From Eubacteriales bacterium (lineage in GTDB: Bacteria; Bacillota; Clostridia; Lachnospirales; Lachnospiraceae), in NCBI GenBank assembly GCA_030536995.1, contig JAUNOY010000017.1, positions 1-62,648 on the forward strand: DNA of 62,648 nucleotides. The letters are read 5' to 3'. Positions 40,728-57,919 of this stretch are shown here, piece after piece. Below the pieces are notes generated by a model that saw only the letters and a list, made by a program, of their open reading frames with translations, did not search any database and was not told the DNA's origin. The position numbers and the translations under genes were made by a program. Position 1 is the first letter of the stretch. Every line of letters begins with the position of its first letter.

Positions 40728-41487
40728 TGGTGTTCAGCTCCTTCCAGATAAGGTTGAAATAGGTTTTGAACTCCGGCGCATTTCTGGATTCCAGAGGAGT
40801 TCTCTCTTTAAGACCAAGGTCGATGGTGACAATTTTTCTGACGGAAGCAGGGCGGGCAGACAGGATGAGAACACGGTCCGCCATGCTGATGGCTTCGGAA
40901 ATATCGTGAGTAACTAAAATGGCGGTGCGTTTTTCCCTGCGCAGGATGGTGCCGATATCGTCGCTTACCTGAAGCCTTGTCTGGTAATCAAGAGCGGAGA
41001 ACGGTTCGTCTAAAAGAAGAAGCTCCGGATTTAAGGCAAGGGTGCGTATCAGAGCAGCTCGCTGGCGCATACCGCCTGACAGTTCGGAAGGATGTGCATA
41101 TTTGAATTTGTCCAATCCATATGCGGTGAGAAGACGGTCAATGTGGGCAAGCCTGTCTGGAGTAAGTTCTTTTCGGATTTCAAGACCGAGAAGAACATTT
41201 TTCCAGACAGTTCGCCATTCCAGAAGATAATCCTTCTGAAGCATATAGCCGATTCTGGAATCTCCTGATTCGACAGGGATTCCACCCATGAGGATTTTTC
41301 CCTGTTCCGGTTTGAGCAATCCGCTGATAAGATTTAGGAGAGTGGATTTGCCGCAGCCGGAAGGACCTACAACAGCGAGAAATTCTCCAGGCATCAGGTC
41401 AAAAGATATATGGGAAAGGGCAGCGATTTCCCCTGACATACTGTGATAGGCAAGGCAGATATCTCTGACTTCCAACAGTGGATTCAT
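40720..41487 (-). CDS. ABC importer ATP-binding protein (SsuB/TauB-like)
   Basis: A 255-residue ATPase: Walker A GPSGCGKST, signature LSGGMRQR, Walker B LLLLDEPFSALD and the switch His in VTHDISEA. It pairs with the downstream permease. First gene of the operon, with AAGGAGG before the ATG. The usual third component, a lipoprotein binding protein, is absent at this locus. Confidence 0.93.
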   Translation of the reverse strand: MNPLLEVRDICLAYHSMSGEIAALSHISFDLMPGEFLAVVGPSGCGKSTLLNLISGLLKPEQGKILMGGIPVESGDSRIGYMLQKDYLLEWRTVWKNVLLGLEIRKELTPDRLAHIDRLLTAYGLDKFKYAHPSELSGGMRQRAALIRTLALNPELLLLDEPFSALDYQTRLQVSDDIGTILRREKRTAILVTHDISEAISMADRVLILSARPASVRKIVTIDLGLKERTPLESRNAPEFKTYFNLIWKELNTNA

Positions 41488-41539
41488 AGAAAATACCTCC
41501 TTTTTCGTATAATTTATGATATGCCTGGGACGGGAATTA

Positions 41540-41548
41540 TGCTATAAT
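41540..41548 (+). promoter_or_regulatory. Extended -10 promoter of flippase-like gene
   Basis: TG-C-TATAAT with a perfect TATAAT at 41543-41548, about 95 bases before the start codon at 41644. No convincing -35. Confidence 0.55.
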
Positions 41549-41643
41549 GGGAAAACAAATAGATACAGATGGTTTTGCCGTTCATAAAGAAAAATCTGGA
41601 AGACGGCAATGAGTATTTCAGAGAGCACAGAAGATGAGGCAGT

Positions 41644-42693
41644 ATGACAAATAAGAAAAAGGCATTATTGAATGCGGTTTTTTTGATTACCGTATTTTCC
41701 CTGACGATGTATCTTGTATTTCGAGGGGAGGATATTCATAAGATAAAAGCAGTCATTCGGGAAGCAGATATGAGTTTTTTGCTTATTGGAATGATTTGTG
41801 TGGTTTTCTTTATTCTTGGAGAATCACTGATAATTTTTTATATGATGAGAAGCCTGGGAGCTAAAGTAAAAATGGGGCATTGCGCGCTGTATTCCTTTGT
41901 AGGATTCTTTTTTAGCTGCATCACTCCCTCTGCGACAGGCGGGCAGCCCATGCAGATTTATTATATGAAGAAAGACAGGCTTCCAATCCCCGTGACAACT
42001 CTTGTGCTGATGATTGTTACCATTACTTATAAGGCGGTTCTGGTGGTCATCGGTGGGGTGATGTGTATATTTGGGCATGGTTTTCTTGTTCGGTATATGG
42101 GAGAGCTTATATGGGTATTTTATGTAGGGGTGGCTCTGAACGTCTTTTGCGTGGCGCTTATGCTGGTGCTTGTATTTGCACCGGGACTTGCCAAATGGAT
42201 TATGGTAAAAGGACTTGCGCTTCTGGAACATTTCCGTTTCCTGCGGCCAAAGAAGACACGCCTTGAGAAATTGGAGGCGTCTATGGATCTTTACCATGAG
42301 ACAGCAGCGTTCTGGGCAGGGCATAAGGGAATTATCTTTAATGTATTTGTGATAACCTTTGTCCAGAGAGTCATTCTTTTTACAGTAACTTACTGGGTAT
42401 ATCGTGCGCTGGGACTTCGTGGCTGCGATATTTTTACAATCACTGTTCTGCAGGCTGTGATTTCTGTGTCTGTAGATATGCTGCCCCTTCCGGGAGGAAT
42501 GGGAATCAGTGAAACACTTTACATGGTTATGTTTGTACCTGTTTTTGGCGAGGTGTTGCTTCCCTCCATGCTTTTGAGCCGAGGGATTGCTTATTACGGG
42601 CAGCTTCTTCTCAGTGCGGTAATGACCTGCGCTGCCCATCTTATCATTGGCAGGGATAAACTTAGAGGAAAAGAAGGAGATACGTTATGTTAG
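41644..42693 (+). CDS. Lysylphosphatidylglycerol synthase-type flippase-like membrane protein
   Basis: A 349-residue protein with about eight membrane helices, of the UPF0104/YbhN type related to the flippase half of MprF. Marks are FFSCITPSATGGQPMQIYYM in the middle and PLPGGMGISE near the end. It probably moves a lipid between membrane leaflets. No LPG synthase (aminoacyl transferase) domain is fused. Its end overlaps the phosphatidylserine synthase start by seven bases, so a phospholipid role is likely. Confidence 0.87.
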   Translation: MTNKKKALLNAVFLITVFSLTMYLVFRGEDIHKIKAVIREADMSFLLIGMICVVFFILGESLIIFYMMRSLGAKVKMGHCALYSFVGFFFSCITPSATGGQPMQIYYMKKDRLPIPVTTLVLMIVTITYKAVLVVIGGVMCIFGHGFLVRYMGELIWVFYVGVALNVFCVALMLVLVFAPGLAKWIMVKGLALLEHFRFLRPKKTRLEKLEASMDLYHETAAFWAGHKGIIFNVFVITFVQRVILFTVTYWVYRALGLRGCDIFTITVLQAVISVSVDMLPLPGGMGISETLYMVMFVPVFGEVLLPSMLLSRGIAYYGQLLLSAVMTCAAHLIIGRDKLRGKEGDTLC

Positions 42694-43304
42694 GATTTTA
42701 TGATTATACTGTAGTACTGACTTATGTCAGTCTCGGAATATCCATTTTTGGAATTACCAGAGCGCTTCAGGGAGATTTCAAAATTGCGATTTTCTGCCTG
42801 GCTCTTTCCGGGTTGTGCGATATGTTTGACGGAAAAATTGCCAGGACAAAGAAAAACCGTACAGAGGATGAGAAGAAGTTTGGGATTCAGATTGATTCCC
42901 TTTGCGATGTGGTGTGCTTTGGTATTTTTCCCATTATGATTTGCTACTGTCTTGGTATGAAGGAAACTGTGGGGATTATCGTATTGATTCTTTATGGTGT
43001 GGCGTCTGTTATCCGGCTCGCATATTTCAATGTGACGGAGGAAAAACGTCAGCAGGAGTCGGCAGAAGTGAGACAGTATTATCAGGGGCTTCCGATTACG
43101 TCTATGGCAATCATCCTGCCGTTCCTTTACCTGATCCGAAGATCCTGGGGAGTACATTTTCTTTTCATGATACATATTGCAGTGGCAGTTGTAGGAGTTC
43201 TTTTTATCAGCGATATTAAAGTAAAGAAGCCGCAGAATCCGGCTGTTATGGTAATGATCGCTCTCGTAGCACTGGCGCTGGCAAGAATGTTTCATCTTTT
43301 TTGA
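42687..43304 (+). CDS. pssA: CDP-diacylglycerol-serine O-phosphatidyltransferase
   Basis: Makes phosphatidylserine from CDP-diacylglycerol and serine in the membrane. The CDP-alcohol phosphatidyltransferase motif runs from DMFDGKIAR to GIQIDSLCD, with the three key Asp and the DG-AR pairs present and a slightly longer gap between halves than in Bacillus PssA. At 205 aa with about six helices it matches PssA. Coupled to the flippase-like gene. Its pathway partner psd lies at 52.3 kb, beyond a nine-kilobase insert of tetrapyrrole genes. Confidence 0.88.
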   Translation: MLGFYDYTVVLTYVSLGISIFGITRALQGDFKIAIFCLALSGLCDMFDGKIARTKKNRTEDEKKFGIQIDSLCDVVCFGIFPIMICYCLGMKETVGIIVLILYGVASVIRLAYFNVTEEKRQQESAEVRQYYQGLPITSMAIILPFLYLIRRSWGVHFLFMIHIAVAVVGVLFISDIKVKKPQNPAVMVMIALVALALARMFHLF

Positions 43305-43328
43305 GGACAAAGAATTCAGTATTTACTG

Positions 43329-43357
43329 TTGAAATTTGGGAAAGAATGTGTTACTCT
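43329..43357 (+). promoter_or_regulatory. Promoter of cobalamin riboswitch transcript
   Basis: TTGAAA at 43329-43334, 17-base spacer and TACTCT at 43352-43357, just upstream of the riboswitch. Confidence 0.6.
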
Positions 43358-43378
43358 GTAAAAAATGAATAATGAAAG

Positions 43379-43572
43379 CAGTAGGTGCCGATACAAGCTT
43401 TTACATAGCATATCGGTTAAAAGGGAAACAGGTGTAAATCCTGTACGATCTCGTCACTGTAAGTCAGGAGTGTGGAAACATGGCATCGCCAGTCACTGGG
43501 CAACCGGGAAGGCGTTTCTGCATGAAAATTGACAAGTCAGGAAACCTGCCTTCTGTTGGTACGGAAACATTT
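43379..43572 (+). promoter_or_regulatory. Cobalamin (B12) riboswitch
   Basis: Conserved segments appear in the expected order: AAGGGAA (43420-43426), GGTGTAAATCC (43431-43441), CGTCACTGT (43452-43460), GCC-CACTGGG (43488-43500), then the B12 box AGTCAGGAAACCTGCC (43535-43550). A terminator at 43637 provides the expression platform. Adenosylcobalamin should stop transcription before the exported CbiK gene, so the gene is made when B12 is scarce. Confidence 0.93.
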
Positions 43573-43635
43573 GTTTCAGATCACGAGGAATTGGTTGTAC
43601 CGTTTGTCATCCTATAATGATGTCTGATGATATTC

Positions 43636-43670
43636 CAATCCTTTTACCATTCGGTAAGAGGATTTTTTTG
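43636..43670 (+). terminator. Riboswitch expression-platform terminator
   Basis: Stem AATCCTTTTACC / GGTAAGAGGATT (one G-U pair) with ATTC loop and a T-run. An upstream segment GGAATTGG near 43590 could pair with CCAATCC as antiterminator. Confidence 0.8.
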
Positions 43671-43764
43671 TCATAGAGTAAGTATATGGCGCTCTGTGTC
43701 AAGGGTCTGTTTTTTGGTTTCCTGCCGGAAATTTGTTGGTTCTGATTAAAAGGAGGAAAATCAA

Positions 43765-44961
43765 ATGAAAAACAAAACTGTAAAAGCTCTTATCATGTTA
43801 CTGGCTGTGACAACTGTGTCTATGACAGGTTCTGTCGTATCCTTTGCTGCAGAAGATACTGCAGTTGAGGCGTCAACAGATGATCAGGCTGCTGCGGATG
43901 AAGTGGCTGCTCTTATTGACGCAATCTATGTTCAGGAAAGAACAGAGACAACAGACGCTGACTGTGCCGCAGCAAAGGAGGCATGGGATGCACTGACAGA
44001 TGCACAGAAAGAGCTCGTAGAGGGAGAAGAGGCAAGCCCGGATTATTTCGGCCTTGATACAGGAGATGCGTCTAAGGATGATCCGCGAAATGCAGATGAA
44101 ATCGGAGAGAACGAGCTTCTTGTAGTCAGCTTCGGAACTTCCTACAATGACAGCCGTGCGCAGGATATAAAGGGAATTGAAGATGCTCTTGAGAAAGCAT
44201 ATCCGGACTGGGCAGTAAGAAGAGCTTTCACAGCACAGATTATTATTAATCACGTACAGGCAAGAGATAATGAAGTGATTGATAATATGGAACAGGCAAT
44301 GGAGCGTGCAGTTTCAAACGGAGTGAAAAATCTGATTATTCAGCCGACACATCTGATGCATGGAGCTGAGTACGATGAAATGATGGAAGTTGTAGATGCT
44401 TACAGAGATAAATTTGAGTCTGTAGCAGTAGCTGAGCCTATGTTAGGACCTGTAGGAGATGACGCAGCAGTAATCAATGAAGATAAGCAGGCTGTTGCAA
44501 AAGCTGTGACAGATGCGGCTCTTGCAGACGCTGGATATGAGACAATGGATGCAGCAGCAGAGGATGGAACTGCATTTGTACTGCTCGGACATGGAACAGC
44601 TCATACTGCAAAGGTTACATATAGTCAGATGCAGACACAGATGGGTGAGCTTGGATACAAAAACGTATTTATCGGTACAGTGGAAGGTGAGCCGGAGGAT
44701 ACATCCTGTGAAGCAATTATCGAAGCTCTTAAAGAAGCCGGTTATAAGAAAATCGTTCTTCGTCCGTTGATGGTAGTTGCAGGTGACCACGCAAGCAACG
44801 ATATGGCAGGTGCAGAGGAAGACTCATGGAAGAGCATGATGGAAGCCAGCGGAAACTTTGACAGTGTGGAAGCTCAGATTGCAGGCCTTGGACGTCTGGA
44901 AGCAGTGCAGCAGCTTTATGTTGCACATACACAGGCTGCTATGGACGAAGCTGCAAAATAA
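43765..44961 (+). CDS. Exported CbiK-family cobaltochelatase
   Basis: A 398-residue CbiK-family class II chelatase that normally puts Co(II) into sirohydrochlorin. The chelatase domain (residues 115-395) has LLVVSFGTSYND, PTHLMHGAEYDE, LLGHGTAHTA and PLMVVAGDHASNDMAG with the metal-site His residues. Unlike cytoplasmic CbiK it has an N-terminal signal peptide ending in VVSFAAE, and an acidic, Ala-rich linker of about 85 residues. It would act outside the cell, like the periplasmic CbiK of Desulfovibrio, which binds heme. A cobalamin riboswitch controls it. AAGGAGG precedes the ATG. Confidence 0.9.
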   Translation: MKNKTVKALIMLLAVTTVSMTGSVVSFAAEDTAVEASTDDQAAADEVAALIDAIYVQERTETTDADCAAAKEAWDALTDAQKELVEGEEASPDYFGLDTGDASKDDPRNADEIGENELLVVSFGTSYNDSRAQDIKGIEDALEKAYPDWAVRRAFTAQIIINHVQARDNEVIDNMEQAMERAVSNGVKNLIIQPTHLMHGAEYDEMMEVVDAYRDKFESVAVAEPMLGPVGDDAAVINEDKQAVAKAVTDAALADAGYETMDAAAEDGTAFVLLGHGTAHTAKVTYSQMQTQMGELGYKNVFIGTVEGEPEDTSCEAIIEALKEAGYKKIVLRPLMVVAGDHASNDMAGAEEDSWKSMMEASGNFDSVEAQIAGLGRLEAVQQLYVAHTQAAMDEAAK

Positions 44962-44995
44962 TTGTTGCGGTTTACAGTAACTCAAATTCATGGAT

Positions 44996-45028
44996 AAAAA
45001 AAGGATGCTGTATTACAGCATCCTTTTT
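44996..45028. terminator. Bidirectional intrinsic terminator
   Basis: Stem AAAAAGGATGCTG / CAGCATCCTTTTT with a five-base loop, between cbiK-like and the convergent surface-protein gene. Confidence 0.9.
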
Positions 45029-45045
45029 AAAGGAAAGAGCAATTC

Positions 45046-45585
45046 TTAACGGTTTTTCTTTTTGACATAATAATTGAGAATTCCACCGCCCACAATAATA
45101 ACGAGGGCAATCATAACTACTTTTTTGGCTGCTTCCTGAGGAAGATCATCCTTGGAGCCTATTGTTTCCGAATAATACGTAAAGGTATATTCGATTTCAT
45201 GGGGAGTACCCATTGCAGTTGTATCTGCAATATGAACAAGAGGCTTGTCAAGGGCGAGAACAGGAATGGTAAAAAGAGAATTTCCTCCATCTGTATTTTC
45301 GTTTAAATATTTTACACCGTCTACGATCATGTAATCGTAATTAGGGCTGCTCCACTGCAGTTTGACATAAGCCTTGGCATTTTTCACAATCATTAGTGCA
45401 GGGGAAGAAACACCTGCCTTGCCGCTGCCGCCGATACATTCGACCTGAATGGAATATTCACCGTCTGCCAGATCAATGGTCATGGCAGAATCAGAGGCAT
45501 ATATAGTCGAACAGGAAACAAGAAGCAGGAGAAACGCAGAGAAAAGAATTCTGCATATTTTGGTAATTGATTTTTTTTTTGACAT
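45046..45585 (-). CDS. Membrane-anchored surface protein with shared single domain
   Basis: A 179-residue exported protein. It has an N-terminal signal peptide (to about residue 30), one extracellular domain (residues 35-140) and a C-terminal membrane anchor with a basic tail (VVMIALVIIVGGGILNYYVK). The domain is clearly homologous to the second domain of the secreted protein at 48012: both share GGSGKA, SPNYDYM-VDG-KY, GNS-F-IPV and TPHEIEYT. It may be a NEAT-like ligand-binding sandwich, but I see no diagnostic heme ligand. The gene is divergent from cbiL across a palindromic region and converges on the chelatase gene. Confidence 0.75.
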   Translation of the reverse strand: MSKKKSITKICRILFSAFLLLLVSCSTIYASDSAMTIDLADGEYSIQVECIGGSGKAGVSSPALMIVKNAKAYVKLQWSSPNYDYMIVDGVKYLNENTDGGNSLFTIPVLALDKPLVHIADTTAMGTPHEIEYTFTYYSETIGSKDDLPQEAAKKVVMIALVIIVGGGILNYYVKKKNR

Positions 45586-45607
45586 GGAAAGTTCCGTCCT
45601 TTCATTA

Positions 45608-45626
45608 ATTATAATTTGATTATAAT
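45608..45626. promoter_or_regulatory. Candidate operator between divergent genes
   Basis: ATTATAAT-TTG-ATTATAAT, a palindrome with 8-base arms, followed by GATTCTAAT. It resembles Fur/PerR-type boxes and overlaps possible -10 elements for both the surface-protein gene and the cbiL operon. The protein that binds is not known. Confidence 0.45.
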
Positions 45627-45696
45627 GTGATTCTAATGGAATGTCAATGAAAGGGCGTAAGATAGATAATAATAGAAAAAAAGGAGGAAATCAGTG

Positions 45697-46395
45697 ATGA
45701 AAGGGATTTTTATAGGAGTAGGAGTAGGACCGGGAGATCCGGAACTGATGACATTAAAGGCTGTTCGCATGATTCAGGAAAACGAGGTAATTGCAGTACC
45801 CGGAAACAATGTAAAGGAAACGGTTGCGTATAAAATCGCAGTACAGGCAGCACCTGAACTTGCAGAGAAAGAGCTTCTTCCTATATATATGCCGATGGTG
45901 CTTGACCGCACAGTTATGGAAGAAAACCATAAGAAGGGGGCAGCTCTTGTAGAAGAATATCTGAAAAAAGGCAAAAATGTAGTCTTTCTTACACTTGGGG
46001 ATCCGACGATTTACTCTACCTTTTCTTACCTTCAGAGAATCGTGGAAGAAGACGGGTATGAGACTGGTCTGGTAAGCGGAATCACATCTTTCTGCGCAAC
46101 TGCGGCAAGAATAAATAAGCCGCTTGTAGAATGGAATGAGCAGCTTCATGTTATTCCTGCTGTACATAAACTGGATGAGAAGCTTGAGAGAGAGGGCAAT
46201 TATGTTCTGATGAAATCAGGAAGAAAGATGAATCAGGTAAAGGAAATTCTTGCCCAGAGCAATAAAGACGTTATGATGGTAGAAAACTGCGGAATGGAAA
46301 ACGAACGCATTTATAACAGCATAGAGGAAATCCCGGACAATGCAGGTTATTATTCTCTGATTATCGCAAAGGAGCCGAAGCGGGCCAATGATTGA
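45697..46395 (+). CDS. cbiL: Precorrin-2/cobalt-factor II C20-methyltransferase
   Basis: SAM-dependent cytoplasmic enzyme adding the C20 methyl group during corrin synthesis, the step after cobalt insertion. Marks are GVGVGPGDPELMTLKAVR at the start and LTLGDPTIYSTFSYL with SGITSF in the middle. At 232 aa it matches CbiL/CobI. No other corrin-ring enzyme is in the window. AGGAGG ends nine bases before ATG 45697; a GTG three bases earlier is in frame. First gene of a seven-gene operon with transporters; its stop overlaps the next start by eight bases. Confidence 0.9.
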   Translation: MKGIFIGVGVGPGDPELMTLKAVRMIQENEVIAVPGNNVKETVAYKIAVQAAPELAEKELLPIYMPMVLDRTVMEENHKKGAALVEEYLKKGKNVVFLTLGDPTIYSTFSYLQRIVEEDGYETGLVSGITSFCATAARINKPLVEWNEQLHVIPAVHKLDEKLEREGNYVLMKSGRKMNQVKEILAQSNKDVMMVENCGMENERIYNSIEEIPDNAGYYSLIIAKEPKRAND

Positions 46396-47230
46396 GCTGA
46401 AAAATCTGACGAAAAAATTTGACGATTTTACGGCGGTGGATTCCATAAATCTGGAAATAGGAAAAGGAGAATTTTTCGGATTATTAGGCGCAAACGGAGC
46501 GGGAAAGACAACGACAATCAGTATGCTTTCCACATTGCTGTTGCCTACATCAGGGGAAATCTATATTGACGGTCAGCTTCTTTCAAGGAAGCGTCCGGAA
46601 CTGAAACGCAAATTAAGCGTTGTTACTCAGGAATATTCCATGAGGCAGGACATGAATATGGATGAAATCATGGAATATCAGGGGAGGCTTTATTTCATGC
46701 CGCGCAGGCAGATTCGGGAGAGAACGGAGGAGCTTCTCAGGTTCTGTGATTTGATTGATTACAGGAAGCGCAGTGTGCGCAAGCTGTCCGGAGGAATGAA
46801 GAGAAAGCTTATGGTGTGCAGAGCGCTTCTCACAGAACCGGAAATTCTTCTTCTGGATGAGCCGACAGCCGGAATGGACCCGATTTCCAGAAGGCAGATG
46901 TGGAATCTTCTGCGCAGACTGAATGAGCAGAATCTGACGATTCTTCTTACAACACATTATATTGAGGAGGCTCAGTCGCTGTGCAGCCGTGTAGCGCTGA
47001 TGCAAAAAGGTCATTTGCAGGAGGTAAATACTCCGGCAGCATTTATTGAAAGTCTTGGAAACCATGCTGTAGACGTAAGCACATCAAATGGGGTAGAAAC
47101 CCATTATTTCCATGAACGCAGAGATGCGATTGCCTATCTTTCCGAAATCGGGGAGAAGGCAGCACTTCGTGAAACGACTCTGGAAGATGTATTTGTGGAA
47201 CGGGTGGGAATCCACCTTACTCAGAAGTGA
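46388..47230 (+). CDS. ABC-2-type exporter ATP-binding protein
   Basis: A 280-residue ATPase of the DrrA/NodI type: Walker A GANGAGKTT, signature LSGGMKRK, Walker B LLLDEPTAGMDP and His switch in TTHYIEEA. The C-terminal tail (about 215-280) has the DrrA-like ETTLEDVFVE motif. It should energise the permease in the next gene. Substrate unknown; its place between cbiL and tetrapyrrole-type importer genes hints at export of a tetrapyrrole, metal or surface component. Confidence 0.9.
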   Translation: MIELKNLTKKFDDFTAVDSINLEIGKGEFFGLLGANGAGKTTTISMLSTLLLPTSGEIYIDGQLLSRKRPELKRKLSVVTQEYSMRQDMNMDEIMEYQGRLYFMPRRQIRERTEELLRFCDLIDYRKRSVRKLSGGMKRKLMVCRALLTEPEILLLDEPTAGMDPISRRQMWNLLRRLNEQNLTILLTTHYIEEAQSLCSRVALMQKGHLQEVNTPAAFIESLGNHAVDVSTSNGVETHYFHERRDAIAYLSEIGEKAALRETTLEDVFVERVGIHLTQK

Positions 47231-47246
47231 CAGGAGGAGTCGTAAT

Positions 47247-47978
47247 ATGGGAATTATTACTATTTTGTGGGAAAAATGGACAGAATTTAAGAGGGATTTC
47301 TATAAGATTACTCTGGCAGCAATGGTAGCTCCATTGATGTATCTGATTGTATTTGGAATGGGAATCCAGACTATGTCACATGGAGAGCCATATCTGAATT
47401 TCCTGATTCCCGGGGTGATTGCACTGACAACTATGAATGGAAGCTTTAACGCTATTGCGCAGAATCTCAATGTACAGAGACTTTATGAGAAGGCTTTTGA
47501 TCAGGTTATGATTTCTCCTACGCCGTTGTGGCAGTTTATTGTGGGACAGATTCTGGGCGGAAGCCTTAGAGGACTGTATGCAGGCTGTGTAATTCTTGTC
47601 CTTACAGCGCCGATTCGTACAGGACTTGTATTTAATGGCGTTTCATTTCTTGTGATGCTCCTTAACGGAGCCGTATTTTCCGCAATCGGTGTTGTGGTAT
47701 CGTTTCTGGCAAAAAATCATGCGGATGTGCCGCGTTTTTCCAATTATATCATTATGCCGATGGCATATCTCTGCAATACTTTTTTTGCCATTGACAGTAT
47801 GCCGGGAAATATACGTCGTGTAGTAGGGATTTTGCCTCTTTCTCAGGCAAGTGCCATGATTCGTACCATATCTGCGGGAGGATCGGCGGATATCCGCGGA
47901 ATTGTCATTTTAATTGTATACCTTGTGGTATTTACCGGAATTGCATTCTGGTTTATATACAAAAAGAAAAACTTGTAA
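47247..47978 (+). CDS. ABC-2-type exporter permease
   Basis: A 243-residue membrane protein with six helices typical of ABC-2 permeases, including the conserved loop LNFLIPGVIALTTMNGSF and NTFFAIDSMPGNIRR. It pairs with the upstream ATPase. ATG 47247 follows AGGAGG; longer in-frame reading is open upstream but lies inside the ATPase gene in another frame. It is followed by the secreted two-domain protein. Confidence 0.88.
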   Translation: MGIITILWEKWTEFKRDFYKITLAAMVAPLMYLIVFGMGIQTMSHGEPYLNFLIPGVIALTTMNGSFNAIAQNLNVQRLYEKAFDQVMISPTPLWQFIVGQILGGSLRGLYAGCVILVLTAPIRTGLVFNGVSFLVMLLNGAVFSAIGVVVSFLAKNHADVPRFSNYIIMPMAYLCNTFFAIDSMPGNIRRVVGILPLSQASAMIRTISAGGSADIRGIVILIVYLVVFTGIAFWFIYKKKNL

Positions 47979-48011
47979 CGAAAGCAGTTTCTCAGAGGAG
48001 GAAATAATAAT

Positions 48012-48902
48012 ATGAAGAACAGATTTGTAAAAGCATTGGTTTTATCTATGGTGGTCTGTACTGCGATGACAGGAAGTGCTGCGGTGTTTGCAGCGGAAGA
48101 AAAAACAGAGACAGTAGAAGTTGCAGAAGAAGGTGTGGAAGAAAATACGGAAGAAAGTGAGCAGGAGCAGACAGGGGATGTGCTGAAGGACGGAGTTTAC
48201 TCTGCGAAATTTGACACAGACAGCGGAATGTTTCACGTAAACGAGTCTCAGGATGGAAAGGGTGTTCTTACTGTAAAAGACGGAAAAATGACAATTCATG
48301 TCAGTCTTGTTTCCAAGAGTATTCTGAATCTTTTTTCCGGACTGGCAGAGGATGCGGAAAAAGAGGGAGCAGAGCTTCTTGAACCTACAACAGATACGGT
48401 AACCTACAGTGACGGATATACAGAGGAGGTTTATGGCTTCGATATTCCTGTGCCATATCTTGATAAGGAGTTTGATGTGGCATTAATCGGAAAAAAAGGA
48501 AAATGGTACGATCATAAGGTCAGTGTTTCCGAAGCGACGCCTCTGGAGGCAGAGGGGAAATCTGTGGAGGATTTGAAACTTGAGGATGGAAGCTATACGG
48601 TTGAGGTAGTCCTTGAGGGAGGTTCAGGCAAAGCGACAGTAGAAAGTCCGGCTGCACTTGAGATTAAGGATGGAAAAGCATCTGCAGTCCTTGTATGGAA
48701 CAGTCCAAATTATGACTATATGCTGGTTGATGGAGAGAAATACGAAAGAACCAACACAGAAGGAAATTCAACTTTCGAAATCCCGGTTTCAGGCTTTGAT
48801 TATCAGATGCCGGTTGTCGGAGATACTGTTGCAATGAGTACACCTCATGAAATTGAGTATACATTACAATTCGATTCAGCTTCTCTTAAAGAAGCCGACT
48901 GA
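48012..48902 (+). CDS. Secreted two-domain protein, possible metal or tetrapyrrole binding
   Basis: A 296-residue secreted protein. A signal peptide (to about residue 27, AAVFAAEE) is followed by an acidic linker. Domain 1 (about 57-175) contains KDGVYSAKFDTDSGMFH, TVTYSDGYTEEVYGFD and KGKWYDHKVSVS. Domain 2 (about 192-290) is homologous to the surface protein at 45046. Both start with a DG-Y strand and end with a beta strand, consistent with tandem NEAT-like sandwiches. No membrane anchor is seen. It sits directly before the binding-protein gene, so capture and handover of a ligand is a reasonable inference; the ligand is unknown. Confidence 0.7.
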   Translation: MKNRFVKALVLSMVVCTAMTGSAAVFAAEEKTETVEVAEEGVEENTEESEQEQTGDVLKDGVYSAKFDTDSGMFHVNESQDGKGVLTVKDGKMTIHVSLVSKSILNLFSGLAEDAEKEGAELLEPTTDTVTYSDGYTEEVYGFDIPVPYLDKEFDVALIGKKGKWYDHKVSVSEATPLEAEGKSVEDLKLEDGSYTVEVVLEGGSGKATVESPAALEIKDGKASAVLVWNSPNYDYMLVDGEKYERTNTEGNSTFEIPVSGFDYQMPVVGDTVAMSTPHEIEYTLQFDSASLKEAD

Positions 48903-48916
48903 CAGAGGGGGATTCA

Positions 48917-50047
48917 GTGAAGAGAGGATTACGAAGATTTATTTCTGGTCTTTTTTTTGCCCTTATCTGTACTGTACCTGTGCAGGCAGCAGAAGAAAGA
49001 GTGGAAATCCCGGGACATGAATTTTCTCACAGTATGGAGCTTTCCTATGCAGAAGAATTCAGCGTCGATTATTATGAGGATGGCTATAAGCTTATTACAA
49101 TTGAAGAGGAAGGGAAATTTCTCGTAGTTCCGGAGAAAGGCACTGTACCGGAAGAGCTTGGAAAAGATATTACCATACTGCAGCAGCCTCTGGATCATAT
49201 TTATCTTGTTGCAACTTCTGCTATGGATCTGTTCCGTGCAGTGGACGGTATAGAGAATATCCGCCTTTCCGGGACAAAGGAAGATGGGTGGTATATTCAG
49301 GAGGCAAAAGACGCCCTTGCATCAGGCGATATGGTGTATGCAGGGAAATATAATGCTCCGGATTATGAGCTGATCCTCAGCGAGGGCTGTGACCTTGCAG
49401 TGGAATCGACTATGATTCATCATAATCCGGAAGTGAAGGAGAAGCTGGAGCAGTTCGGAATCCCGGTTCTTGTAGAGCGTTCCAGCTATGAATCCCACCC
49501 TCTTGGAAGAACCGAATGGATTAAGCTCTACGGAGCGATTTTGAACAGAGAAGAAAATGCAGAAGAGGTATTCCGGGAACAGGCGGAGAAGCTGGAGAGG
49601 CTTTCTTCCGAAAAAAATACAGGTAAGACTGTGGCGTTCTTTTACATCAATTCTGTGGGCGCTGTGAATGTCAGAAAAAGCAGCGATTATGTTTCAAAGA
49701 TGATTGAGCTTGCCGGGGGCAGATATGTGCCTGAGGATACAGGTGCAAATGACAGCGCCATGTCAACTATGAACATGCAGATGGAAGAGTTTTATGCAAA
49801 GGCAAAGAATGCAGATTATATTATTTATAACAGCACGATTGACGGTGAGCTTTCCGGTTTTTCGGAGCTTTTTGCAAAGAGCAGTCTTCTGAAGGATTTC
49901 AAAGCTGTCAAAGATGGAAACGTGTGGTGTACAGGTAAAAATCTTTTTCAGGAAAGCACAGGACTTGGCACCATGATTGAAGATATTCATGCAATGCTGA
50001 CAGAGGATTCCGTAGAAGAATTTACTTATATGCATAAAATAAAATAG
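48917..50047 (+). CDS. FecB/BtuF-type ABC substrate-binding protein
   Basis: A 376-residue exported helical-backbone metal-receptor protein of the iron-siderophore/heme/cobalamin uptake class. The signal peptide ends VPVQA before AEE, a signal-peptidase I site; I see no lipobox Cys, unusual for a Gram-positive binding protein. Later segments LILSEGCDLAVEST and TEWIKLYGAILN match the family. Starts with GTG 48917 after AGAGGGGG. It belongs with the FecC-type permease and ATPase immediately downstream. Confidence 0.85.
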   Translation: MKRGLRRFISGLFFALICTVPVQAAEERVEIPGHEFSHSMELSYAEEFSVDYYEDGYKLITIEEEGKFLVVPEKGTVPEELGKDITILQQPLDHIYLVATSAMDLFRAVDGIENIRLSGTKEDGWYIQEAKDALASGDMVYAGKYNAPDYELILSEGCDLAVESTMIHHNPEVKEKLEQFGIPVLVERSSYESHPLGRTEWIKLYGAILNREENAEEVFREQAEKLERLSSEKNTGKTVAFFYINSVGAVNVRKSSDYVSKMIELAGGRYVPEDTGANDSAMSTMNMQMEEFYAKAKNADYIIYNSTIDGELSGFSELFAKSSLLKDFKAVKDGNVWCTGKNLFQESTGLGTMIEDIHAMLTEDSVEEFTYMHKIK

Positions 50048-50077
50048 AGATACACGAGAGAATAAGGAGAGTGCAAT

Positions 50078-51097
50078 ATGACGGAAAAAAAACGTGTTGG
50101 CAGATATTTTTCTGCGTTTATAATACTGACTGCCCTTCTGGCGGTTTTGTTTGTATGGAACGTGAATTCGGGCAGTATTGACCTCTCCGTTTCTGATATT
50201 TTTAATATTATTTTCCGCAGAAAGGGAGAAGAGGTATCTTACAATATTATCTGGGAAATCCGTCTGCCCCGTATTCTGGCGGTTATTATTCTGGGAGGCG
50301 CGTTGTCTGTATCCGGATTTCTTCTTCAGACCTTTTTCGGAAATCCCATTGCAGGACCCTTTGTGCTGGGGATTTCATCAGGAGCAAAACTGGTGGTATC
50401 TCTTGTGATGATTTTCTTTTTGAGTAAATCAATTATTTTGGGATCAGGTGTGATGATTCTTGCTGCCTTCGCAGGAGCGATGATTTCTATGGGATTTATT
50501 CTTTTGATTTCCCGTAAGGTACATAAGATGTCCATGCTCGTTATAAGCGGTGTTATGATAGGATATATCTGTTCGGCGATTACGGATTTTATAGTGACTT
50601 TTGCAGACGATTCCAATATTGTGAATCTTCACAACTGGTCAATGGGAAGCTTTTCCGGAATGAACTGGGAAAATGTGGGAGTTATGATTGCTGTGATTTC
50701 GGTGACTTTGCTTTTGACATTTTTTATGTCAAAGCCAATCGGCGCTTATCAGTTGGGAGAAGTCTATGCTCAGAATATGGGAGTAAATATTAAAATATTC
50801 AGGATTGCGCTGATTCTTTTGTCCAGTATTCTTTCTGCCTGTGTAACAGCTTTTGCTGGACCGATTTCCTTTGTTGGAATTGCAGTTCCTCATATTGCAA
50901 AGAGCCTGCTTAAAACAGCGAAACCCATTCTCGTGATTCCGGCATGTTTCCTTGGAGGGGCAGTATTCTGTCTGTTCTGTGATTTGATTGCAAGAACAGT
51001 GTTTGCGCCTACAGAATTGAGTATCAGCTCTGTAACGGCAATTTTTGGAGCGCCTGTTGTTATTTATATTATGATACGAAGACAGCAGAGGATTTAG
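50078..51097 (+). CDS. FecCD-family ABC importer permease
   Basis: A 339-residue permease with about ten helices. Marks are RLPRILAVIILGGALSVSG, GNPIAGPFVLGISSGA and SFVGIAVPHIAKSL, all typical of the BtuC/FhuB/HmuU family that imports cobalamin, heme or siderophores. The AAGGAGA site precedes its ATG. Only one permease gene is present, so it should act as a homodimer. Confidence 0.93.
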   Translation: MTEKKRVGRYFSAFIILTALLAVLFVWNVNSGSIDLSVSDIFNIIFRRKGEEVSYNIIWEIRLPRILAVIILGGALSVSGFLLQTFFGNPIAGPFVLGISSGAKLVVSLVMIFFLSKSIILGSGVMILAAFAGAMISMGFILLISRKVHKMSMLVISGVMIGYICSAITDFIVTFADDSNIVNLHNWSMGSFSGMNWENVGVMIAVISVTLLLTFFMSKPIGAYQLGEVYAQNMGVNIKIFRIALILLSSILSACVTAFAGPISFVGIAVPHIAKSLLKTAKPILVIPACFLGGAVFCLFCDLIARTVFAPTELSISSVTAIFGAPVVIYIMIRRQQRI

Positions 51098-51107
51098 AAG
51101 GGCAGGG

Positions 51108-52241
51108 ATGAATATGCGGCCATATTTCTTTTATACGGACAGGCTGACAGTAGGATATGACGGGAAGCCTTTAATTAAAAATATAGAGATAGAGCTTAAC
51201 AGAGGAGAAATCCTTACCCTGATCGGGCCAAACGGGGCAGGGAAATCCACAATCTTAAAAAGTATTACAAGACAACTTAAAGCAATCAGCGGAACGGTAT
51301 ATCTTGACAACGAAATGCTGAATAAGATGACCTATAAGGAGATTTCCAGAAAACTTTCTGTAGTTTTGACTGAACGTATGCGGCCGGAACTTATGACCTG
51401 TGAGGATGTAGTTTCTACAGGGCGTTATCCTTATACAGGAACTCTGGGGATTCTTTCAGCAGAGGACAAGGTAAAGGTGCGCGCTGCAATGGAAATGGTA
51501 CATGCATGGGATTTAAGAGACAGGGATTTCACTGCGATCAGTGACGGACAGAGGCAGAGGATACTTCTTGCTCGAGCAATCTGTCAGGAACCGGAGATTA
51601 TCATTTTGGACGAACCGACCTCTTTTCTTGATATCCGTCATAAGCTGGAACTTCTGGCAATTTTGAAAAAAATGGTTCTGGAGCAGAAGGTGGCTGTAAT
51701 CATGTCGCTCCATGAGCTTGATCTGGCACAGAAAATATCGGATAAAGTAATCTGTGTTCACGGAGAATATATTGAACGGTACGGAACGCCGGAGGAGATT
51801 TTTACTTCGGAATATATCAGGGGATTGTACGGAATAACAAAGGGGAGCTACAATGCGGCTTTTGGCTGCATTGAACTGGAGCCGCCGGAAGGAGAGCCTG
51901 ATGTGTTTGTGATCGGTGGAAATGGTACGGCTGCGCCTCTGTACCGAAAACTTCTCCGACAGGGTGTTCCCTTTGTGACGGGAGTTCTTCACAAAAATGA
52001 TATTGATTATCAGGTGGCAAAAGATCTTGCCTGTGAAGTGATTGCAGAGGAGGCTTTTGAGCCGGTCAGCGAAAGCTCTTACCAAAAAGCTCTGGACAGA
52101 ATGAAAAAATGCAAAGAGGTTATCTGCTGTATAGAGGAATTCGGTACAATGAATCGGGGGAATGAGCGTCTTATGCATGAGGCGGAAAAACTGGGGATAC
52201 TTAAAGCGGCAGCTCTTGCAAAGCCGATTCACATGATGTAA
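51108..52241 (+). CDS. FecE/BtuD-type ABC ATPase with extra C-terminal domain
   Basis: Residues 1-250 are a normal importer ATPase: Walker A GPNGAGKST, signature ISDGQRQR, Walker B IILDEPTSFLD and switch MSLHELDLA. The protein is 377 aa against about 255 for BtuD. The extra 120 residues begin EPDVFVIGGNGTAAPLYRKL and end near KPIHMM; they look like a small Rossmann-type sensor or binding domain. A long terminator ends the operon just after its stop. Confidence 0.9.
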   Translation: MNMRPYFFYTDRLTVGYDGKPLIKNIEIELNRGEILTLIGPNGAGKSTILKSITRQLKAISGTVYLDNEMLNKMTYKEISRKLSVVLTERMRPELMTCEDVVSTGRYPYTGTLGILSAEDKVKVRAAMEMVHAWDLRDRDFTAISDGQRQRILLARAICQEPEIIILDEPTSFLDIRHKLELLAILKKMVLEQKVAVIMSLHELDLAQKISDKVICVHGEYIERYGTPEEIFTSEYIRGLYGITKGSYNAAFGCIELEPPEGEPDVFVIGGNGTAAPLYRKLLRQGVPFVTGVLHKNDIDYQVAKDLACEVIAEEAFEPVSESSYQKALDRMKKCKEVICCIEEFGTMNRGNERLMHEAEKLGILKAAALAKPIHMM

Positions 52242-52245
52242 AATA

Positions 52246-52305
52246 GTTCGTAGCTGTTTCATATTTTTCGGGGAAGACCCGGGAAACGGTTACGAACCTT
52301 TTTTT
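52246..52305 (+). terminator. Intrinsic terminator of the tetrapyrrole-type operon
   Basis: GTTCGTAGCTGTTTC pairs with GAAACGGTTACGAAC across an inner CGGG/CCCG hairpin, then a T-run. Confidence 0.85.
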
Positions 52306-52334
52306 ACTTATTTTGTTATAAAGGCGGTGCACAA

Positions 52335-53249
52335 ATGAAGTATATTGACAGAAAAGGAAACATCACCATTGAAGAAAACGGACAGGATAAGCTTTTAAAG
52401 CATCTGTACAATGACCGGGGCGGAAGGCTGTGTCTGAAACTTCTTGTCAGACCCTTTGTGTCAAAAGCGGCAGGACTCTTTTTGAATACCGGAATATCTG
52501 CGAAGCTGGTGCCGGGTTTTGTGAAACGGAACCATATTGATCTGTCGCTCTATCAGAAGCAGGAATTTACGTCTTATAATGATTTTTTTACAAGGAAGAT
52601 TAAGCCTCAGGAACGTCCTGTTGCAGAAGAGGATAAGGTTCTTATAAGCCCCTGCGACGGAAAAGCGACTGTATGCAGGATTGCGGATGATTCCCGTTTT
52701 TATATTAAAGATACGGAATATACGGTAGAGCAGCTTCTGAGAAATAAAAAACTTGCCCGGAAATATCTCGGCGGTTATGCGCTGATTCTGAGACTCACTG
52801 TGGACGATTACCATCGCTACTGCTATGTGGCGGATGGGGAAAAGTCAAAAAATGTGGTGCTTCCGGGCGTATTTCATACAGTTAATCCTGCTGCAAACGA
52901 TGCATTGCCAATTTATAAAGAAAATGCAAGAGAATATACACTTTTAAAAACAGAAAAATTCGGTACGATTCTGATGATGGAAGTAGGAGCCATGATGGTA
53001 GGGAAGATAACCAACCATAAAAAAGGTTCCGGTCCTGTGAAAAAGGGAGAGGAAAAAGGGTATTTCGAATTCGGCGGTTCCACTGTTATAATGCTCCTTC
53101 AGCATGGAAAGGTACGGCTGGATTACGATTTGATAGAAAACTCTGAGAACGACTATGAAACAATTGTGAGAATGGGAGAACGTATCGGTGAACAGAAATT
53201 ATCAAAAAGAACTGGAAAAAATCATAGAAGAGAACCGGAAGCTCAATAA
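52335..53249 (+). CDS. psd: Phosphatidylserine decarboxylase
   Basis: A 304-residue pyruvoyl enzyme making phosphatidylethanolamine from phosphatidylserine. SPCDGKA (Asp) and DDYHRYCYV (His) are self-processing residues, and GGSTVIML contains the Gly-Ser where the chain cleaves to form the pyruvoyl group. The protein family usually ends near GERIG; here reading continues for about 19 basic residues through the start of queH. The start has AAAGGCGG nearby. It completes the pathway begun by pssA. Confidence 0.92.
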   Translation: MKYIDRKGNITIEENGQDKLLKHLYNDRGGRLCLKLLVRPFVSKAAGLFLNTGISAKLVPGFVKRNHIDLSLYQKQEFTSYNDFFTRKIKPQERPVAEEDKVLISPCDGKATVCRIADDSRFYIKDTEYTVEQLLRNKKLARKYLGGYALILRLTVDDYHRYCYVADGEKSKNVVLPGVFHTVNPAANDALPIYKENAREYTLLKTEKFGTILMMEVGAMMVGKITNHKKGSGPVKKGEEKGYFEFGGSTVIMLLQHGKVRLDYDLIENSENDYETIVRMGERIGEQKLSKRTGKNHRREPEAQ

Positions 53250-53817
53250 AGTTCCGAGACTCTTTCTCCATAGCTGCTGCGCGCCCTGCAGCAGCTATGT
53301 ACTGGAATATCTTTCGAATTATTTTTCAATCACGGTATTTTATTATAATCCAAATATATCTCCGAAAGAAGAATATGAGCACAGGGTGGAAGAAATCCGC
53401 CGTTTGATAGAGGAGATGGAATTTGCTCATCCTGTGGAATTTGTGGAGGGCAGATACGAGCCGAAGGAATTTTTTGATATGGCAAAAGGGCTGGAGGAGG
53501 CGCCGGAAGGCGGAGAGAGATGCTTCCGGTGTTATCGTCTTCGTATGGAGGAAGCGGCAAGGCTTGCAAAAGAAGGCGGCTATGACTATTTTACTACCAC
53601 TCTGACAATCAGTCCTCTTAAAAATGCAGGGAAATTAAATGAAATCGGAGAAGAGCTGGGAGAGATTTATGAAGTTTCCCATTTGCCGTCCGATTTTAAG
53701 AAAAAGAACGGATATAAGCGTTCCATCGAATTATCTCATGAGCATGGGTTGTACAGACAGAATTACTGCGGCTGCGTATTCTCTAAAAGAGAAGCGATGG
53801 AGAGAGAAAAAGAATAA
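53188..53817 (+). CDS. queH: Epoxyqueuosine reductase QueH
   Basis: A 209-residue DUF208 protein performing the last queuosine step, reduction of epoxyqueuosine on tRNA. The metal cysteines are in LHSCCAPCSSYVLEY, RCFRCYRLRMEEAA and YCGCVFS. Starts with GTG 53188 (MNRNYQKELEKIIEE), inside psd, so 62 bases overlap. There is no later in-frame Met before the essential cysteines. With the preQ1-regulated operon at 37.4 kb it shows the host modifies tRNA with queuosine. Confidence 0.92.
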   Translation: MNRNYQKELEKIIEENRKLNKVPRLFLHSCCAPCSSYVLEYLSNYFSITVFYYNPNISPKEEYEHRVEEIRRLIEEMEFAHPVEFVEGRYEPKEFFDMAKGLEEAPEGGERCFRCYRLRMEEAARLAKEGGYDYFTTTLTISPLKNAGKLNEIGEELGEIYEVSHLPSDFKKKNGYKRSIELSHEHGLYRQNYCGCVFSKREAMEREKE

Positions 53818-53822
53818 AAGAT

Positions 53823-53851
53823 TTGCATTTTGAAATGAAGTGTGGTACTCT
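53823..53851 (+). promoter_or_regulatory. Promoter of argH operon
   Basis: TTGCAT at 53823-53828, 17-base spacer and TACTCT at 53846-53851, giving a leader of about 95 bases before argH. Confidence 0.6.
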
Positions 53852-53953
53852 ATCACTTGAAAGTGCAAAAAGGTTAAAGCGGCAGTAATTTTCGAAAACG
53901 GGAATTTTTGTTAAAAATCTGCAGATTAATAAATAAAAGTGAGGAATAAAGAT

Positions 53954-55333
53954 ATGGCACAGCTTTGGGGAGGACGTTTCACGAAGGAGACGGACAAACT
54001 GGTGTATAATTTTAATGCGTCAATTTCTTTTGATCAGAAATTTTATGAGCAGGATATCCGGGGGAGTAAAGCTCACGTGGCAATGCTTGCGAAGCAGGGG
54101 ATTCTGACAGAGACAGAAAAAGAAGACATTACGAAGGGACTGGATGGGATTCTTGAGGACGTACGAAGCGGCAAGCTGGAGATTACTTCCGCATATGAAG
54201 ATATCCACAGCTTTGTTGAGGCAAATCTGATCGACAGAATCGGAGATGCCGGAAAGAAGCTTCACACAGGACGAAGCCGAAACGATCAGGTTGCCCTTGA
54301 TATGAAGTTGTATGTAAGAGACGAAATTGATGAGACAGATGGTCTGTTGAAGAAGCTTCTGGAAGCTTTGCAGAAGATTATGGAGGAGAATATCCATACT
54401 TATATGCCCGGATTTACCCATCTTCAGAAGGCGCAGCCTGTAACGCTGGCACATCACGTAGGAGCATATTTCGAGATGTTTGTCCGTGACAGAAGCAGGC
54501 TTGCAGATATCAGAAAGAGAATGAATACCTGTCCTCTGGGAGCAGGCGCGCTTGCAGGAACAACTTATCCTCTTGACAGAGAGTATACGGCGCAGCTTCT
54601 GGGCTTTGACGGTCCCACCAGAAACAGTATGGATTCTGTTTCAGACAGAGATTATGTGATTGAGCTTCTGTCTGCATTTGCAACGATTATGATGCATATG
54701 AGCCGTTTTTCCGAGGAGATTATCCTGTGGAATTCCAATGAGTACCGTTTCGTGGAGATTGACGATGCGTACAGCACAGGAAGCAGTATTATGCCTCAGA
54801 AGAAGAATCCTGATATCGCAGAGCTGGTAAGGGGAAAAACAGGCAGGGTATACGGTGCGCTGACTTCTATTCTCACGACAATGAAGGGAATTCCGCTTGC
54901 CTATAACAAAGATATGCAGGAAGATAAGGAGCTTACCTTTGACGCTATCGACACAGTGAAGGGCTGTCTTGCTCTTTTTACAGGGATGGTTTCCACTATG
55001 CAGTTCCACAAAAAGAATATGGAAGCAAGTGCGAAAAACGGTTTTACAAATGCGACAGATGCGGCGGATTATCTTGTAAACCACGGCGTACCTTTCCGTG
55101 ACGCCCACGGTATTGTAGGAAGACTGGTTCTTACCTGTATTGACAAAGGAATTTCTCTTGATGAGCTTTCTCTGGAAGAGTATAAAGAAATCAGTCCTGT
55201 ATTTGAAGAGGATATTTACGATGCCATCAGTATGCAGACCTGTGTGGAGAAGCGTATGACAATCGGCGCGCCCGGACCGGAAGTAATGGAACAGGTAATC
55301 GCACAGAACCGCAGATATCTGGAAGAAAATTAA
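53954..55333 (+). CDS. argH: Argininosuccinate lyase
   Basis: Last step of arginine synthesis, releasing fumarate from argininosuccinate. The 459-aa protein has WGGRFTKETDKLVYNFNASI at the start, THLQKAQPVTLAHH and the fumarase-superfamily loop GSSIMPQKKNPD with the catalytic Ser. ATG 53954 follows GAGG; a GTG at 53939 is in frame but precedes the ribosome site. It is separated from other arginine genes; asd follows 30 bases later. Confidence 0.96.
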   Translation: MAQLWGGRFTKETDKLVYNFNASISFDQKFYEQDIRGSKAHVAMLAKQGILTETEKEDITKGLDGILEDVRSGKLEITSAYEDIHSFVEANLIDRIGDAGKKLHTGRSRNDQVALDMKLYVRDEIDETDGLLKKLLEALQKIMEENIHTYMPGFTHLQKAQPVTLAHHVGAYFEMFVRDRSRLADIRKRMNTCPLGAGALAGTTYPLDREYTAQLLGFDGPTRNSMDSVSDRDYVIELLSAFATIMMHMSRFSEEIILWNSNEYRFVEIDDAYSTGSSIMPQKKNPDIAELVRGKTGRVYGALTSILTTMKGIPLAYNKDMQEDKELTFDAIDTVKGCLALFTGMVSTMQFHKKNMEASAKNGFTNATDAADYLVNHGVPFRDAHGIVGRLVLTCIDKGISLDELSLEEYKEISPVFEEDIYDAISMQTCVEKRMTIGAPGPEVMEQVIAQNRRYLEEN

Positions 55334-55363
55334 AAAAATTAAGATAATGAGGAGACATTTATT

Positions 55364-57737: not shown

Positions 57738-57809
57738 CAGCCAGTACGGGAATCGAACCCGTGTTTCCGCCGTGAGAGGGCGGCGTCTTAACCCCTTGAC
57801 CAACTGGCC
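57738..57809 (-). tRNA. tRNA-Glu (anticodon CUC), copy 2
   Basis: A 72-nt cloverleaf: acceptor GGCCAGT/ACTGGCT, anticodon stem CCGCC/GGCGG with loop CTCTCAC (anticodon CUC), T-loop TTCGAAT with stem ACGGG/CCCGT, discriminator G. It reads GAG codons. CCA is not encoded. Identical to the upstream copy 38 bases away. Confidence 0.95.
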
Positions 57810-57847: not shown

Positions 57848-57919
57848 CAGCCAGTACGGGAATCGAACCCGTGTTTCCGCCGTGAGAGGGCGGCGTCTTA
57901 ACCCCTTGACCAACTGGCC
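57848..57919 (-). tRNA. tRNA-Glu (anticodon CUC), copy 1
   Basis: Same 72-nt sequence as the copy at 57738. Nearest to the promoter, so both copies come from one transcript. Confidence 0.95.

Follow-up and report, generated by a model that had tools for sequence, protein, structure and literature searches.

What does a bacterium capture with an exported cobalt chelatase that is placed behind a cobalamin (B12) riboswitch and beside surface-type binding proteins and an ATP-binding cassette (ABC) importer? The question is raised by a locus at positions 43,366 to 52,241 of a 62,648-nt stretch of Lachnospiraceae DNA (Eubacteriales bacterium, GenBank assembly GCA_030536995.1, contig JAUNOY010000017.1), the whole of which is referred to here as the window. 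A sequence-only reading had proposed a system dedicated to the extracellular capture of a tetrapyrrole or cobalt, the handling of its metal and its import, with heme, a cobalt-porphyrin or a corrinoid as candidate ligands. The idea of capture, metal handling and import fits the evidence well, but it overlooked that the exported chelatase seems, from the distribution of the genes, to replace the cytosolic one; among the ligands, heme is unlikely and an early B12 tetrapyrrole is favored. Our best reading of the comparative data is that the system serves neither heme uptake nor plain corrinoid salvage and that it would, with a probability of roughly 50%, load cobalt outside the cytoplasm into an early tetrapyrrole of anaerobic B12 synthesis and import the product, most likely turning sirohydrochlorin into cobalt-sirohydrochlorin.

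Both the riboswitch and the exported cobaltochelatase named in that reading were confirmed. The aptamer lies at 43,366–43,567 on the (+) strand and scored 102.1 bits against RF00174 (gathering score, 31.5), covering model positions 1–189 of 189; it is one of three cobalamin riboswitches in the source genome (G000, a draft of 2.83 Mb in 40 contigs, 92% complete). The expression platform contains a hairpin with a 12-pair stem and a T tail at 43,637–43,671 on the (+) strand, in a region (43,568–43,690) whose RNA fold had a z-score of −2.2. Since this terminator-like hairpin and its T run follow the aptamer, cbiKx is predicted to be off when B12 is bound. The gene itself (43,765–44,961, [+] strand) encodes a 398-aa protein of the CbiK family (PF06180, E = 1.9e-69), which we call CbiKx, with a Sec signal sequence (by eye), a helical N-terminal stretch at about residues 38–112 and a CbiK domain at 114–398. 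CbiKx belongs to the CbiK family by both profile and fold; it falls short of the curated equivalog NF047852 (190.4 bits; cut-off, 400), as does the cytosolic paralogue (277.4 bits). Residues Glu202, His276 and His342, which we take to correspond to the metal-site residues Glu89, His145 and His207 of Salmonella CbiK, are kept in all 130 CbiKx-like sequences, a set that includes at least one cytosolic copy (L121) and counts a few genomes twice. An extracytoplasmic location is indicated by the signal sequence of the window protein (by eye) and by the lipobox pattern that 38 of 74 relatives carry.

The claim that a surface protein and a secreted protein have a domain in common also stood, and the domain can be named as NEAT. 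The secreted protein, NEAT2 (48,012–48,902, [+] strand), has two NEAT-fold domains (about residues 58–178 and 188–294), assigned by fold comparison of the predicted structure, with the VIA-align comparison spanning mainly residues 188–294 (domain 2); sequence searches for solved relatives returned nothing significant. At 25.5 bits the window protein misses the gathering score of the Pfam NEAT family PF05031 (32.8), but 47 of 51 family members match it at E ≤ 0.01 (best, 1.7e-9). The surface protein, NEATm (45,046–45,585, [−] strand), carries a single NEAT-like domain that is 51% identical to NEAT2 domain 2 and matches PF05031 at an E-value of 0.028 only. Its translation shows a signal sequence and ends in a transmembrane anchor without an LPXTG-like motif (all by eye), and hence it does not count as sortase-anchored. 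Positions 277 and 281 of NEAT2 domain 2, which presumably correspond to the YxxxY heme ligands of heme-binding NEAT domains and were located from the ends of structural alignments, are never Tyr in any of 51 sequences, while domain 1 retains a Tyr at 166.

The remaining genes encode a substrate-binding protein, a FecCD permease and an ATPase in BtuFCD order, in agreement with the FecBCD-type importer proposed earlier. BtuF (48,917–50,047, [+] strand) matches PF01497 over residues 98–342 (E = 1.6e-32) and has about 90 extra residues ahead of this domain, with no clear lipobox by eye. BtuC (50,078–51,097, [+] strand) matches PF01032 (E = 4.4e-83), and its best NCBIfam model is BtuC, below the cut-off (223 of 334 bits). 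BtuD (51,108–52,241, [+] strand) matches PF00005 and, below the cut-off (208 of 537 bits), the corrinoid ABC ATPase model PRK09536 over residues 13–349. The ATPase had been called unusual, but its C-terminal extension is included in this alignment with PRK09536.

These genes form a conserved unit. Scanning one genome per species (84,980 species) with NEAT2 yielded 317 relatives, the best 80 of which were kept as loci. In 79 of these 80 loci, CbiKx is the gene immediately upstream of NEAT2 and has the same orientation; where enough sequence is available, NEAT2 is followed by BtuF (76 of 78 loci), BtuC (74 of 76) and BtuD (70 of 71). A cobalamin riboswitch precedes CbiKx in 78 of 80 loci, ending 157–744 bases before the CbiKx match (77 loci measured); the two misses begin at a contig end, and the search model was built from nine aptamers whose sources include the window and seven of the 80 loci. 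In 24 cases neighboring genes are fused into one open reading frame (CbiKx-NEAT2, n = 17; NEAT2-BtuF, n = 7). We refer to the riboswitch, CbiKx, NEAT2, BtuF, BtuC and BtuD as module 1. Downstream of it we found CobQ (39 loci), CobT (39), CobU (36), CbiB (36), CobS (34) and CobC (33), counts that are held down by the many loci ending before that point. In related genomes, then, the five proteins stay together rather than being scattered among unrelated partners, while CbiL, the ABC-2 pair and NEATm, which had been assigned to the same system, constitute a separate and rarer module. Several variants accompany module 1: a protein of ~230 residues without a Pfam or NCBIfam match is encoded upstream in 14 of 80 loci (L033:223–930 and 13 others), extra cobalamin riboswitches lie downstream of BtuD in L019 (7435–7607) and L249 (7581–7788), and in L155 (G190) the usual order is inverted, a NEAT domain being fused ahead of the exported CbiK. 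Large multi-NEAT proteins, with open frames of roughly 600–1,800 residues, adjoin BtuF in L162 (G080), L164 (G170), L170 (G134) and L251 (G153); BtuFCD is present in three of these four loci and an upstream riboswitch in three, with no adjoining exported CbiK.

The link to B12 synthesis was examined in 150 Lachnospiraceae genomes (one per genus, ≥90% complete), in which NEAT2 had a match in 55 (NEAT+ genomes) and CbiD, a marker of de novo corrin synthesis, in 90. All 55 NEAT+ genomes have CbiD, compared with 35 of the 95 others (p = 3e-17; this and the following p values ignore phylogeny, the genomes not being independent), and none of the 60 genomes without CbiD has a NEAT match. CbiD is likewise found in 50 of 50 module-1 genomes (the genome of the window plus the genomes of 49 loci from the set of 80). 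Cobalt-type CbiM, defined by an E-value below 1e-40 and an open frame of ≤317 residues (longer frames being, we assume, NikMN fusions), occurs in 4 of 55 NEAT+ genomes versus 21 of the 35 CbiD+ genomes without a NEAT match (NEAT− producers; p = 7e-8), or 23 of 35 if the ambiguous genomes G064 and G075 are added; weak matches (E = 3e-7 to 3e-4) in NEAT+ G067, G124, G170 and G174, which have no strong one, and in NEAT− producer G116 were excluded. Based on this distribution, module 1 may replace the cobalt importer CbiM.

The chelatase itself shows a parallel shift. In the 55 NEAT+ genomes and 25 of the 35 NEAT− producers, for which CbiK N-termini were read from DNA and SirC was also compared, a cytosolic CbiK is present in 20 of 55 versus 24 of 25 (p = 3e-7). 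Specifically, the NEAT+ genomes have exported CbiK only (n = 31), both kinds (n = 18, two of them thin: a second CbiK truncated to 181 residues next to a contig end in G057 and, in G091, a 94-bit match with an unread N-terminus), cytosolic CbiK only (n = 2) or none (n = 4). No signal sequence was seen in the 26 CbiK matches of NEAT− producers (the G159 copy looks broken). All CbiX matches fall on CbiK genes, with none elsewhere in the 57 genomes searched (two of them NEAT−), and the exported CbiK is the only CbiK/CbiX in 31 of 55 NEAT+ genomes. SirC, which makes sirohydrochlorin, is missing from 20 of the 31 exported-only genomes, from none of the 18 with both kinds and from 2 of 25 NEAT− producers, absence meaning no match or only matches of 20–25 bits, most of which hit an open frame some 465 residues long. 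Between BtuCD and CbiA, hemA, hemB, hemC, hemL, cobA, sirC and cbiL were all lacking in G114, G197, G160, G181, G191 and G056; in the SirC-less G183, G144, G109 and G124 the operon was only partly read. Exported CbiKs form one clade (support, 0.87), and a riboswitch lies upstream on the same strand in 45 of 49 exported copies versus 2 of 22 cytosolic copies of the same genomes (one of which, L113, was too divergent to place); among NEAT− producers, 4 of the 26 regions surrounding a CbiK contain a riboswitch, counted there irrespective of its position with respect to the gene. A further arrangement was seen in L226, L229 and L245 (G064, G070 and G162) and L101 (G068), where one frame combines a transporter-like ATPase (CbiO-like by eye) with a cytosolic CbiK; such a protein would couple cobalt import to chelation.

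From gene order, the riboswitch, export signals (by eye), folds, residues and co-occurrence, all read from sequence, we infer a ligand, a chemistry and an order of hand-over. When B12 is scarce, the riboswitch would permit production of CbiKx, which outside the membrane would put Co2+ into a tetrapyrrole that the NEAT-fold proteins either hold or hand over. BtuF would then pick up the cobalt-tetrapyrrole, BtuCD would bring this cargo in, and cytosolic CbiL, CbiH, CbiF and the rest would complete the corrin. Organisms whose genomes lack both SirC and a cytosolic CbiK/CbiX would depend on neighbors or the diet for the ring, and the route is perhaps the only one in 20 of the sampled genomes. The organism of the window has HemA, SirC, HemC, CobA-HemD, HemB, HemL and a cytosolic CbiK; for it, the route would be a B12-repressed supplement.

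Several observations weigh against early-tetrapyrrole loading, in addition to the non-independence of the genomes. BtuC and BtuD score best, albeit below the cut-offs, against corrinoid transporter models, which fits corrinoid import equally well. G000 has a full cytosolic route, with cbiD to cbiB and hemA-sirC-hemC-cobA/hemD-hemB-hemL on contig 13, the cytosolic CbiK on contig 20 and CbiL in the window. In G068, G080, G156 and G170, what NEAT2 matches is a long multi-NEAT protein rather than a part of module 1, and the NEAT+ genomes G051, G080, G126 and G170 lack any CbiK. If all strong CbiM-family matches, including NikM-like ones, are counted, the contrast weakens to 14 of 55 versus 23 of 35, and some CbiM-family match is present in 17 of 50 module-1 genomes. 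The exported-CbiK clade also holds at least two cytosolic copies (L099 and L121), and the cytosolic CbiKs of NEAT− producers G063, G100 and G143 have CbiKx as the type that they resemble most. Eleven exported-only genomes retain SirC, in nine as a long form (match beyond model position 160) that might itself be a cytosolic chelatase, which would weaken the case for these genomes but not for the 20 without SirC. In the latter, the need for ring import rests on SirC and, as to early hem genes and cbiL, on the stretches read; in these cbiL was seen only in G150, with a piece in G109, and its absence from SirC-less operons means that the cargo could be later than sirohydrochlorin, which would suit CbiK less. 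Finally, the ABC-2 pair described below is absent from all 31 exported-only genomes.

The closest relative of the system is the IhtB/FetB system of Porphyromonas gingivalis, in which we take IhtB to be FetB (PDB 9b86). Like the window locus, Iht (IhtA-E) combines an exported CbiK with a substrate-binding protein, a permease and an ATPase. It differs in being described, in the portions of that literature available to us, for heme and iron and with a TonB receptor, and those portions mention neither a NEAT protein nor a B12 riboswitch. No TonB-dependent receptor like IhtA was detected among the open reading frames of 40,000–56,000 in the window (ten proteins scanned against Pfam). That Iht also serves B12 is speculation.

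How do other explanations of module 1 fare? Capture or recapture of corrinoids would have NEAT2 and BtuFCD import cobinamide, cobalamin and others, with the exported CbiK binding the corrinoid or removing a wrong metal. The cobalamin riboswitch, the resemblance of BtuC and BtuD to corrinoid transporters and the nucleotide-loop genes downstream in many operons are all compatible with this, but we consider it unlikely. Plain salvage of finished corrinoids is disfavored because auxotrophs would be expected to carry such a system no less often, and the NEAT match is absent from all 60 CbiD-less genomes, where salvage would matter most. Nor does corrinoid capture explain the loss of cytosolic CbiK, SirC and CbiM; the metal site is kept in 130 of 130 sequences, and another riboswitch-led locus of G000, with a DUF4430 protein and an S-component-like membrane protein, could serve corrinoids. 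Uptake of cobalt only, whereby CbiKx would trap Co2+ outside and hand it to BtuF bare or on a small chelator without any tetrapyrrole crossing the membrane, agrees with the rarity of cobalt-type CbiM (4 of 55 versus 21 of 35) and with the lack of a PF01891 (CbiM) match, and thus of a CbiMNQO cobalt importer, in the 92% complete G000. We judge it quite improbable: it leaves the missing SirC and the lost cytosolic chelatase unexplained, and the NEAT and BtuF/FecCD families carry large ligands.

Less probable again is metal exchange, in which a captured siroheme or other metalloporphyrin holds iron that CbiKx swaps for cobalt before import. CbiK enzymes are known as insertases, and the heme tyrosines are absent from NEAT domain 2. 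Its appeal lies in P. gingivalis IhtB, which is thought, in the part of the report available, to strip heme iron (PMC10913741), in FetB, said in the accessible part of a review to put manganese into protoporphyrin (PMC13402209), and in NEAT folds that bind metalloporphyrins according to titles of structure entries. Heme-iron acquisition in the manner of Isd or Iht could draw on the NEAT fold, the similarity of CbiKx to FetB and a weak match of BtuF to IsdE (30 bits; cut-off, 299). We reject heme uptake as very improbable, because a B12 aptamer is present (78 of 80 loci), CbiD co-occurs strictly (55 of 55) and NEAT domain 2 lacks the heme tyrosines at 277 and 281 (51 of 51). Loading and import of an early B12 tetrapyrrole remains the reading that we prefer.

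The two further cobalamin riboswitches of G000 lie at other loci. The second (contig 29; L005 and L167) is followed by genes for a DUF4430 protein and for a small membrane protein without a family match that resembles, by eye, an S component of an energy-coupling factor transporter; together they are a possible corrinoid importer. The third (contig 31; L004) lies near a cysteine-rich zf-like protein (PF04071).

The second module of the window consists of CbiL, the ABC-2 pair and the membrane NEAT protein. CbiL and the ABC-2 pair were recognized correctly by the sequence-only reading: cbiL, encoding the (cobalt-)precorrin-2/factor II C20-methyltransferase, lies at 45,694–46,395 on the (+) strand (TIGR01467, 197.2 bits; cut-off, 163.3), followed on the same strand by an ABC-2 ATPase (46,388–47,230; PF00005, best NCBIfam drrA, below the cut-off) and a 243-aa permease (47,247–47,978; PF01061), whose start we moved from 47,112 to about 47,247. 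No cbiL was found in the stretches read of the other cbi cluster of G000. Modules 1 and 2 share a locus in 3 of 80 cases, and in one of these, L012, module 2 has a riboswitch of its own. In the window, module 2 is inserted within module 1. The permease occurs in 8 of the 150 family genomes, all with cytosolic CbiK and SirC, and its homologues in the seven other genomes are 67–79% identical over residues 1–243. Its neighbors are repeatedly ring-making genes. The order is hemL, hemC, cobA-hemD, cbiL, ABC-2 pair, cytosolic cbiK, NEAT, sirC, CbiKx, NEAT2, btuFCD and cobQ in L032, and CbiKx, NEAT2, BtuFCD, CbiL and ABC-2 pair in G168; the pair lies between cbiL and a NEAT gene, with cbiD next, in G184, and between cbiL and cobA-hemD-sirC in G115. 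The pattern does not hold everywhere, as no cbiL was found near the pair in the stretches read of G096, G153 and G165. Its place among ring-making genes and beside ring-binding surface folds suggests that the pair exports an early tetrapyrrole intermediate, both direction and cargo being inferred; in the organism of the window, it may export the cell's own ring for loading. A dedicated exporter as a general part of the system was rejected, given its presence in 8 of 150 genomes and in no exported-only genome. Tentatively, and with the odds against it, the early B12 ring could carry cobalt outside cells and be shared among gut bacteria. Some Lachnospiraceae would make the ring and export it via ABC-2, and many others, having lost the cytosolic enzymes as far as cobalt insertion, would capture it, load it by CbiKx and import it. 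Such extracellular cobalt insertion combined with cross-feeding of a tetrapyrrole might account for the P. gingivalis cobalamin puzzle as well.

Other known systems resemble parts of this one. CbiK-P of Desulfovibrio vulgaris (2xvx, 2xvz) is a periplasmic cobalt chelatase. Isd-type NEAT hemophores (IsdX1, IsdC and Hbp2) differ from the window system, which lacks heme tyrosines, is under B12 control and has a cobalt chelatase as a partner. We know of no NEAT partner or importer module for CbiK-P. BtuG and BtuH of Bacteroides, gut bacteria like many Lachnospiraceae, are described in the sources as far as accessible as acting at the cell surface in B12 uptake, but they bind finished B12, and their folds differ from the NEAT-type parts seen here. 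The precursor salvagers of Shelton et al. 2018 (PMC6461909) likewise have corrin genes without the early steps and are mostly Firmicutes; the accessible part of that paper shows by experiment a dependence on 5-aminolevulinate only, in three species, predicts the rest and names no ring uptake system. The titles and beginnings of abstracts surveyed, with few subscription papers among them, contain no description of this gene combination, which is weak evidence of novelty. For bacteria with corrin genes but without the early steps, the system offers a candidate uptake machine as the source of the ring, placed behind B12 riboswitches and found in 55 of the 150 Lachnospiraceae genera sampled. If our reading is correct, common bacteria carry out cobalt insertion, usually treated as cytosolic, on the outer side of the membrane, a ring intermediate is transported across it, and genome-based predictions of B12 producers need revising. 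It also offers a B12 reading for the IhtB/FetB family, described so far as heme and iron machinery.

The insertion of module 2 also changes how the window locus is likely to be transcribed. A single riboswitch-led operon, as first supposed, is contradicted by a terminator-like hairpin (14-pair stem, 44,998–45,028) between cbiKx and the convergent NEATm gene, in a region (44,962–45,045) with a folding z-score of −4.2, by the antiparallel orientation of NEATm, and by the separate plus-strand run of seven genes without a riboswitch (cbiL, ABC-2 ATPase, ABC-2 permease, NEAT2, BtuF, BtuC and BtuD). NEATm has a promoter-like site of its own at 45,619–45,647 on the (−) strand (TTGACA-17-TATAAT, 12/12 match), a match tempered by a promoter scan total near that of shuffled sequence (22 versus 17.9). 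Because the strong hairpin ends cbiKx, NEATm has its own promoter-like site and module 2 sits inside module 1, the riboswitch of the window leads cbiKx only. Elsewhere in the window, two tandem tRNA genes of equal score are located at 57,738–57,809 and 57,848–57,919 on the (−) strand.

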